A DNA stretch of 64,000 bases, taken from assembly GCF_023256195.1 (NCBI RefSeq), contig NZ_JAGDWX010000012.1, positions 26,685 to 90,684 on the forward strand, written 5' to 3'. Made by a program: the position numbers and the translations under genes. This DNA comes from Acidithiobacillus sp. (GTDB taxonomy: Bacteria > Pseudomonadota > Gammaproteobacteria > Acidithiobacillales > Acidithiobacillaceae). Position 1 is the stretch's first letter, and every line of letters begins with the position of its first letter. This document shows, in pieces, positions 61,725-64,000 of the stretch. The notes beneath the pieces were generated by a model, which saw only the letters and a program-made list of their open reading frames with translations, did no database searches and was not told where the DNA came from.

Positions 61725-63155
61725 TCAGGCCGGTGGCAGACTGGATTCGCTCCCGCGACGCTGCGCCATGAGCGTCGGCAGATCGTCCAGATTCCAGGCG
61801 GCGACAAAAGCCGCCAGGGTCAGAGCCGCGGCGATACCGAAATCCCAGCGCAGGGCGTGAACGATGTGCGTGGCGGCAAGGTGGTCCGAGGCGGCGGGCG
61901 TGACGCCCAGAAAATGGCTGAAGACCGCACCGAAGCCCGCCACACCCAGGGTTCCGCCCAGAGAGCGGAACAGCGATACCGTCGCCGTCGCCACGCCCAG
62001 ATGCCGATGAGGCAGCGCCCACTGCGCCGACAACACCATGACCTGCATGGTAGAGCCCAAGCCCACACCCAGCAGAATCAGCGCGCCGTCGATCTGCCAC
62101 AGCGGCGTCTGTACCGCAATGTGCGAGAGTAACCACAGCGCCAGGGCCGTCAGCAGCGTCCCCAGGATCGGCACCATCCGAAACTTTTGATGCTTGCTGA
62201 TCCAACGTCCACTGAATACCGAAGTCAACAGCATTCCGACCAGCAAGAAGAGCATTTCCAGACCCGATTCCGTCGGCGTAAATGCCCGCACCGTCTGGTA
62301 GTAGGTGGGTAGAAAACTGATGGAGCCAAGCATGGCTGCCCCAACGAAAAAAGATACGATCACACTGGCACTGAAGGTTTTATGACGAAAAAATACTAAA
62401 GGCAATATGGGTTCAGGATGATGCGGACTCCAGAAAAATATCCCCCATACGCTCGCCGATATCAAAGCAAGAAGAACCCAAATCCAGGAGTCATGCGCGC
62501 CAAATTCCATCAGCAATACCAGCGCCGATAGGCCGAAGAACAGGGATCCCGCACCGACGATATCAAAGGGAAAACGCTTTCTCTGAGTCTTTGGAAAAGC
62601 CCATTGAACGATAATCAGGCAGAATATTCCGAAAGGAATATTTATGTAGAATATCCATCGCCAGCCAAAAGTTTGGACGACAAAGCCGCCCAGAAAAGGC
62701 CCAATGAGGGTTGCCAGTCCGAATGCCGCACCTACCAGGCCCTGATATTTGCCGCGTTGCTCCAGCGGCAGGAAGTCGGCAATGCTGGCGATGGCCGTGA
62801 CCAGGATACCGCCACCACCGAGACCTTGCAGCGCGCGAAACAACACCAGACTCTCGAGACTCCAAGCCAGACCTGAAAGGATCGAGCCCACCAGAAAGAA
62901 GGCTACGGCAAAAGTCAGTACCACCTTGCGCCCCATCAGATCCCCGAGCTTACCGTAAATGGGCAGGGAGACGGTGGAACTGAGTAGATAGGCGGTAATC
63001 ACCCAGGGCAGGTGGGCGAGTCCGTGCAGATCCTCGGCAATGGTCGGCAAGGCAGTGGCCACCACGGTCTGATCCATGGCCGCCAAGAAAATGGCCGAGA
63101 GCACGGCCAGAAACATGCTTTTCTGGGCCAAAGACAAACGGTAGGGTGCAGACAT
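61725..63155 (-). CDS. MFS transporter, DHA2 (EmrB/QacA, 14-TM) family
   Basis: AAMDQTVVATALPTIAEDLHGLAHLPWVITAYLLSSTVSLPIYGKLGDLMGRK. Confidence 0.93.
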   Translation of the reverse strand: MSAPYRLSLAQKSMFLAVLSAIFLAAMDQTVVATALPTIAEDLHGLAHLPWVITAYLLSSTVSLPIYGKLGDLMGRKVVLTFAVAFFLVGSILSGLAWSLESLVLFRALQGLGGGGILVTAIASIADFLPLEQRGKYQGLVGAAFGLATLIGPFLGGFVVQTFGWRWIFYINIPFGIFCLIIVQWAFPKTQRKRFPFDIVGAGSLFFGLSALVLLMEFGAHDSWIWVLLALISASVWGIFFWSPHHPEPILPLVFFRHKTFSASVIVSFFVGAAMLGSISFLPTYYQTVRAFTPTESGLEMLFLLVGMLLTSVFSGRWISKHQKFRMVPILGTLLTALALWLLSHIAVQTPLWQIDGALILLGVGLGSTMQVMVLSAQWALPHRHLGVATATVSLFRSLGGTLGVAGFGAVFSHFLGVTPAASDHLAATHIVHALRWDFGIAAALTLAAFVAAWNLDDLPTLMAQRRGSESSLPPA

Positions 63156-63405
63156 GAACACTCCCCGAGACCGGTCGGCGTGGTGCTCGCGATGGTAACA
63201 CAAAGAAGTCGGACGAAGGGTGGCTGAGGGCTCGCTATCGCAACACCCATGGCTTCCTCTGAGACTGGAGACAACTGCCTTAGGGTCGCGGGACCGCCTC
63301 GCCGGCGACTCACGAAATCAAGGAGACAGTCGGGTGGGTCCAGCGCCCTTGCGCCGTCTTTCATCGGGACGATGTGCCAGGATATAGCGGCTTTCTCATT
63401 CGAGA

Positions 63406-63464
63406 TGGTGCCCAGGGCCGGACTCGAACCGGCACGGGAAAACCCGAGGGATTTTAAGTCCCTC
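63406..63464 (-). pseudogene. truncated tRNA-Leu(UAA), 3' portion only; probable att site
   Basis: Minus strand AGGGACTTAAAATCCCT-CGGGTTTTCCCG-TGCCGGTTCGAGTCCGGC-CCTGGGCACCA; no D-arm or 5' acceptor strand upstream. Confidence 0.85.
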
Positions 63465-63602
63465 TTCGCCCATTTTTTACCCGTTTCGCGTCAAATGCTT
63501 ACTCCGGCGCGTCCTTTGTGTTTCAATGGTTTAGGCTTGTCATCCGTTCCCTATCATTCCCTTCCACCCCCTCTCATTCCCATCACCCGCTCCTTTTTCA
63601 GT

Positions 63603-63639
63603 GTCCAGCCAGTGTCCAGATTGTCCAGATCGCGTCCAG
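63603..63639 (+). repeat. four GTCCAG repeats, possible integrase arm-type sites
   Basis: GTCCAG at 63603, 63614, 63623 and 63634 (spacing 11, 9, 11 bp). Confidence 0.65.
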
Positions 63640-63747
63640 CCGCCGCCAGCGGAGACCCCGCCTGCACCGTTCTATTCTCGTAAACCAAAGGCGCGCTTTA
63701 TTAACGTAGCGTTATCTCAGTTTCATTCATATATACCATTCAAAAGA

Positions 63748-63797
63748 GTTTGCACCTGAATTTGCAAACCTTGGGAAAAACGACTATAATTACAGTC
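63748..63797 (+). promoter_or_regulatory. sigma70 promoter overlapped by two palindromes
   Basis: TTGCAA (63762-63767)-N17-TATAAT (63785-63790); GTTTGCA-N8-TGCAAAC over -35; GACTATAATTACAGTC over -10. Confidence 0.75.
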
Positions 63798-63857
63798 GAG
63801 TGCGGGGATAGCAGCGCAGCGACAAGGGCGACTCGGGCCTTTCCCCAGCACTGACAT

Positions 63858-64000
63858 ATGAAAGCCGAGATGATCGAGGACAAGGCAATGAAACACAAAC
63901 ATGTTTTTGGTAGCATTCGCACACCCGCAGAACTTGCCGAACAGCGCAAAGAACAAGCCGCGTTCGTCCGCGCAGACAAGCGCCATGGCGTGATCAGTAA
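63858..64000 (+). CDS. partial ORF, first gene of element
   Basis: Open from ATG 63858 (MKAEMIEDKAMKHKHVFGSIRTPAELAEQRKEQAAFVRADKRHGVIS...) to window edge; downstream of strong promoter. Confidence 0.5.
   Translation, partial: MKAEMIEDKAMKHKHVFGSIRTPAELAEQRKEQAAFVRADKRHGVIS

Follow-up and report, generated by a model that had tools for sequence, protein, structure and literature searches.

The 64,000-nt window analyzed here (C28:26685-90684, from a genome of 1.98 Mb in 37 contigs) closes on what is quite probably the attachment-site remnant left by insertion of an Acidithiobacillaceae tyrosine-recombinase element into tRNA-Leu(UAA), with the integrase preserved at the opposite flank, on contig C33, most likely contributed by a second, later element. 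The left boundary is marked by a displaced 3' half of the tRNA, and the features around it are listed in Table 1.

On the minus strand, window positions 63406-63463 correspond to the 3' half of tRNA-Leu(UAA), and foreign sequence replaces everything upward of the anticodon stem. Read on that strand (...GGGTAAAAAATGGGCGAAGAGGG-ACTTAAAATC-CCTCGGGTTTTCCCGTGCCGGTTCGAGTCCGGCCCTGGGCACCA), the fragment comprises an anticodon stem-loop (~63464-63446), followed by a long variable arm, a T-arm, and the CCA at 63408-63406; the D-arm and 5' acceptor strand are missing. The original prediction of a minus-strand tRNA-Leu(UAA) truncated in this way is seen both in the sequence and in the match to the intact gene, while its span of 63406-63480 is right at the start and overruns at the other end, where ~16 bp lie beyond the homologous part, inside element sequence. 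tRNA finders make no call at the fragment: ARAGORN reports zero tRNAs in the window, and Rfam gives a sub-threshold tRNA-like match (63415-63482) with none at gathering score.

The fragment aligns with the genome's intact tRNA-Leu(UAA) over 58 bp at 95% identity (E = 3.7e-20), which excludes a chance match. All three differences fall in the variable arm, which reads CGGG-TTTT-CCCG in the fragment versus CGGC-TTAT-GCCG in the intact gene. Compared with the version common to the rebuilt copy and the congener (CGGCTTATGCCG), the fragment's arm (CGGGTTTTCCCG) carries two compensating changes that keep the stem, along with one loop change. These compensating changes speak for descent of the fragment from a working tRNA rather than for decay. 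Searched as an exact sequence, the variable arm in the form seen in the fragment has no match in the GTDB species genomes or IMG/VR.

Table 1. Features at the right end of the window (window coordinates).
Feature	Position	Strand	Remarks
MFS transporter gene, chromosomal left flank	61725..63203	-	Pfam MFS_1; 84% DNA identity to G001:C1:871284-871502, ~2.1 kb from the intact tRNA of G001
Displaced attachment-site fragment at the element's chromosome side: tRNA-Leu(UAA) 3' part with anticodon stem-loop, variable arm, T-arm, 3' acceptor strand, and CCA	63406..63463	-	58 bp/95% to C33:1594-1678; uncalled by ARAGORN
Anticodon loop region ACTTAAAATC, probable strand-exchange region	63450..63459	-	Where identity of relatives' fragments starts; 3' halves swapped downstream in G008 and G002
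Left end of integrated element, cut by contig end	63464..64000		Unrelated to tRNA 5' half
GGGAAT-type repeats between arm sites and core	63538..63596	-	Identified by eye
Four CTGGAC repeats, putative arm-type integrase binding sites	63603..63639	-	Plus-strand GTCCAG at 63603, 63614, 63623, 63634; spacing 11, 9, 11
ORF start (MKHKHVFGSIRTPAELAEQRKEQ...), probable element gene, cut by contig end	63892..64000	+	Similar to N-terminal part of a 212-aa ORF, G026:C883

Because C28 stops at window position 64000, the predicted far end was sought on other contigs. The sole complete tRNA-Leu(UAA) of the genome is located at C33:1594-1678 (minus strand), 1.6 kb into that contig from its left end. On the element side of this tRNA, 88 bp from its 3' end, a complete tyrosine recombinase of 346 aa is encoded (C33:466-1506, minus strand; Pfam PF00589, E = 7.6e-30). 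The nearest named relatives of the recombinase are integrases of Acidithiobacillus species and metagenome-assembled Proteobacteria; judged from these relatives, the element would belong to the family Acidithiobacillaceae. The intact tRNA and the 3' fragment share the same orientation (both minus) and are colinear with the congener, as in the Islander definition of an island, here on two contigs, with a tyrosine integrase gene between tRNA and fragment. At the far flank, a complete tRNA-Leu(UAA) on the minus strand that shares about 55-60 bp with the fragment had been anticipated, as had an integrase near one of the ends; C33 supplies the copy, with 58 bp in common, and the recombinase adjoining it.

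The two flanks are found joined in the one congener available for comparison (G001), where a single contig carries, in this order and within 3 kb, the MFS gene known from the window's left flank, one intact tRNA-Leu(UAA), and the right-flank gene of C33, with no fragment. This order identifies the C28 right end and the C33 left end as the two flanks of one insertion site. The congener presents an empty site in the Islander sense, its flanks surrounding one intact tRNA; the intervening 1.9 kb differs and contains toxin-antitoxin genes and transposase debris. The joined flanks bear out the proposed orientation, with chromosome left of 63406 and element right of 63464. The original prediction named the same fragment with the same flanks in element-free relatives as evidence against it; the congener has those flanks, and the fragment is absent.

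Fragments in three relatives locate the crossover within the anticodon loop. In G008, the rebuilt tRNA combines the host 5' half with a very different 3' half, and the displaced fragment retains the family-type 3' half. In G002, the fragment is identical to the tRNA of sister genomes and species, with the rebuilt copy one base different, and the G022 repeat begins exactly at CTTAAAA. Across relatives, fragment identity starts at or just before the anticodon loop, as in the anticodon-loop class A; an anticodon-centered attachment-site class is also known from Islander (PMC4383910), and published Acidithiobacillus elements have direct repeats of ~45-50 bp over the tRNA 3' part, e.g., 77,45 for Arg-TCT (PMC3826726). 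With the crossover in the anticodon loop, the window fragment would be the 3' half that the host tRNA had before integration. The fragment's variable arm differs from the family consensus, so this reading assumes an earlier change in the host lineage. The G008 tRNA-Leu(UAA) itself (G008:C49:1270-1354) appears to be a working gene, and its 3' half, strongly unlike that of the family, is evidently element-supplied.

To the right of the fragment, relatives match 63464-64000 only in short stretches, which lie close to another integrase-type gene in G026 and to a tRNA-Leu linked to an integrase in G027. In plasmid and phage collections, the sole matches lie in the tRNA part of the query. The 212-aa ORF of G026:C883 lies near a gene with an integrase-type N-domain. 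At L082:1845-2438 of the same contig, an integrase-type N-terminal domain is fused to a domain matching PADLOC PDC-S57 profiles, and the catalytic recombinase part is absent. GGGAAT-type repeats recur at distal ends in G008, G002, and G027. The C28 end overlaps no other contig of the assembly. The last 55 bp of C20 begin both C33 and C3, forming an assembly-graph junction, so C20 is not assignable to one element; it may belong to the element between C28 and C33. C20:1-6602 encodes the N-terminal part of HsdM, two metallophosphatases, an AAA ATPase, and an LprI-like gene, with no transfer genes seen.

Elements of this integrase family carry short repeats at two places, beside the start of the integrase and close to the displaced fragment. 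The window CTGGAC repeats and the C33 GATGCAC repeats share two 7-mers (p = 0.66) and are thus not of the same class. Integrase-proximal repeats of the tRNA-Leu(UAA) integrases of G027, G002-C22, and the G008-C31 remnant do share 7-mers with the window CTGGAC repeats (p = 0.001 each). Among controls, both ends match in seven of eight elements, including the G008 tRNA-Leu pair (p = 0.001), G022 (p = 0.003), and five tRNA-Arg(UCU) pairs (p = 0.002-0.004), one of them the C3/C19 element of the same genome; the G002 pair matches weakly (p = 0.26). The GATGCAC pair pattern occurs in the genome at C33 only and the exact CTGGAC pair at the window end only. The mismatch between window and C33, together with the CTGGAC-class matches elsewhere, indicates that different elements, stacked in one tRNA or merged in a hybrid, probably contributed the window end and the C33 integrase, and that at least two elements probably used the host's tRNA-Leu(UAA). 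Integration by a tyrosine recombinase into the tRNA 3' half, as first proposed, is supported, with the refinement that the C33 integrase is probably not the maker of this junction. CTGGAC repeats accompany MAGFYEQ-type N-domains at three different tRNAs; judging from the putative arm sites next to the fragment, the junction-making integrase had an arm-binding domain of this type. In G008, a decayed CTGGAC-class integrase lies next to the displaced fragment, with a TGCAGCACA-class element on the fragment's other side. In G027:C10 (L083), a complete tRNA-Leu(UAA) (770-854) is preceded by GATGCA repeats and followed, on its 3' side, by a CTGGAC-class integrase.

In a comparison of 59 tRNA-linked integrases from the order and related metagenomes, the arm motif goes with the N-terminal 48 residues and the tRNA with the rest of the protein, a pattern that suggests swappable modules. 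Pairs with ≥70% identity in these 48 residues and <60% in the remainder (n = 42) have arm 7-mers in common in 88% and the same tRNA in one; pairs with 70-88% identity in the remainder and <60% in the N-domain (n = 29) have arms in common in 3% and the same tRNA in 22. After removal of near-duplicates, arm words are in common for 36 of the 48 partners by N-domain, where 4.6 would be expected (permutation p = 0.0005), and the tRNA is the same for 16 of the 23 partners by the remainder. As the pairs lack independence and the thresholds were picked after seeing the data, this is a strong pattern and not a formal proof. In an overall partial Mantel analysis, arm similarity is weakly correlated with both domains (0.14 each, p = 0.001), and the separation is visible in the high-identity bins. 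Alignment-free structure prediction of the integrase is poor except for residues 1-50, which form a predicted β-β-β-α domain (pLDDT 82-95) that would fit an arm-binding fold. The exchange pattern of N-domain and arm repeats is well supported. A wider proposal, in which the N-terminal arm-binding domain and arm repeats form one exchangeable unit, the rest follows the tRNA, and stacked elements differ in arm class, is tentative and somewhat doubtful as a whole; its stacking rule is drawn from two cases, CTGGAC with GATGCAC here and the CTGGAC remnant with TGCAGCACA in G008. Different classes would possibly be favored in stacked elements because the same classes would excise each other. Acquisition of an arm-binding domain in tyrosine recombinase evolution is already published (PMC8138268), and we found no paper in the open-access literature on domain-plus-sites exchange within an integrase family.

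In the history that we favor, a tyrosine-recombinase-driven integrative element would have entered tRNA-Leu(UAA) through strand exchange in the anticodon loop and rebuilt the tRNA with a 3' half of its own. This would have displaced the original 3' half of the host to the far end, now window 63406-63463, with element DNA starting at 63464 and filling the unassembled gap from the C28 right end to the C33 left end. A second element, with the C33 integrase of another arm class, would later have entered the rebuilt tRNA by tandem accretion. Such a two-element array requires an inner junction, with a third fragment of the tRNA and a second integrase of the tRNA-Leu clade; this junction is missing from the assembly and may be unassembled or deleted.

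The unseen third fragment also fits a single hybrid element that originally had CTGGAC arms at both ends and later exchanged its proximal arm and integrase N-domain for a GATGCAC-class cassette, probably becoming immobile. Such cassettes clearly vary independently between integrases, and the N-domain of the C33 integrase is 73-75% identical to the Ala/Arg/Leu(UAG)-type and the rest 81-83% identical to the G027 and G008 Leu(UAA) integrases. However, stacking at tRNA-Leu(UAA) is directly seen in G008, and with the C28-C33 gap unassembled, the missing inner junction is weak evidence; we consider the hybrid unlikely. The simplest history is one ordinary element inserted by the C33 integrase, as C28 and C33 ends flanking one ancestral locus would allow, where either the CTGGAC repeats are not arm sites or the two ends use different sequences. 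The end-to-end repeat match in seven of eight controls and the pairing of CTGGAC with MAGFYEQ-type N-domains at three tRNAs argue against it and render it improbable. A decayed tRNA gene or pseudogene without any mobile element would account for the truncation, with the contig ending ~520 bp further on, but is scarcely credible beside the intact copy with its integrase, the congener's conserved flanks, the arm-site repeats, and a compensated variable-arm stem unlike random decay. Loss of the tRNA without a mobile element was rejected on synteny and integrase.

Two further tRNAs of the genome are used by such elements. A second element of the same integrase family occupies tRNA-Arg(UCU), with an intact tRNA (C3:1658-1734) and integrase, a 48-bp displaced fragment (C19:2408-2455), and matching arm repeats. 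The third tRNA is tRNA-Phe, with a displaced 3' half at C12:1792-1837 and an interrupted integrase gene by the intact tRNA-Phe (C31:19789-19865); repeat identity of the C12 fragment also begins at the anticodon stem-loop.

The modularity of the integrases is an interesting by-product, and the island boundary itself is ordinary and well documented. As an island border, it puts tRNA-Leu(UAA) on the map of mobile-element sites in acidophiles. Displaced fragments record the former 3' half of a tRNA, making the functional tRNAs host/element chimeras. Arm-site repeats can serve as a tag that assigns each junction to the integrase behind it, a help in resolving tandem islands, and these tags suggest that arm recognition can be swapped without a change of target site.

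Anticodon stem/loop recombination of Acidithiobacillus ICEs is reportedly, by its title, the subject of Castillo et al. (2018, RNA Biol); the crossover mapped here by fragment comparison likewise lies at the anticodon loop, with tRNA-Leu(UAA) as the target. The element resembles tRNA-borne ICEs, IMEs, and islands of the same bacterial family, such as ICEAcaTY.1, GIAcaTY.5, and ICEAcaSM.2 (PMC3826726) and the A. ferrooxidans iMGEs (PMC10322971), in its repeat-adjacent integrase beside a rebuilt tRNA and in direct repeats covering the tRNA 3' part. Unlike in those elements, the arm repeats of the present ends do not match, and the two copies of the direct repeat are not identical. The main text of the A. 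caldus paper (PMC3826726) lists no tRNA-Leu site, and tRNA-Leu, in two spellings, is absent from the A. ferrooxidans text (PMC10322971). Islander records 125 tandem arrays of two or more islands (PMC4383910). In contrast to Islander islands, the present ends lie on two contigs and the array is deduced from arm-site class; as in those islands, a 3' fragment and a regenerated tRNA mark the ends (PMC4383910).
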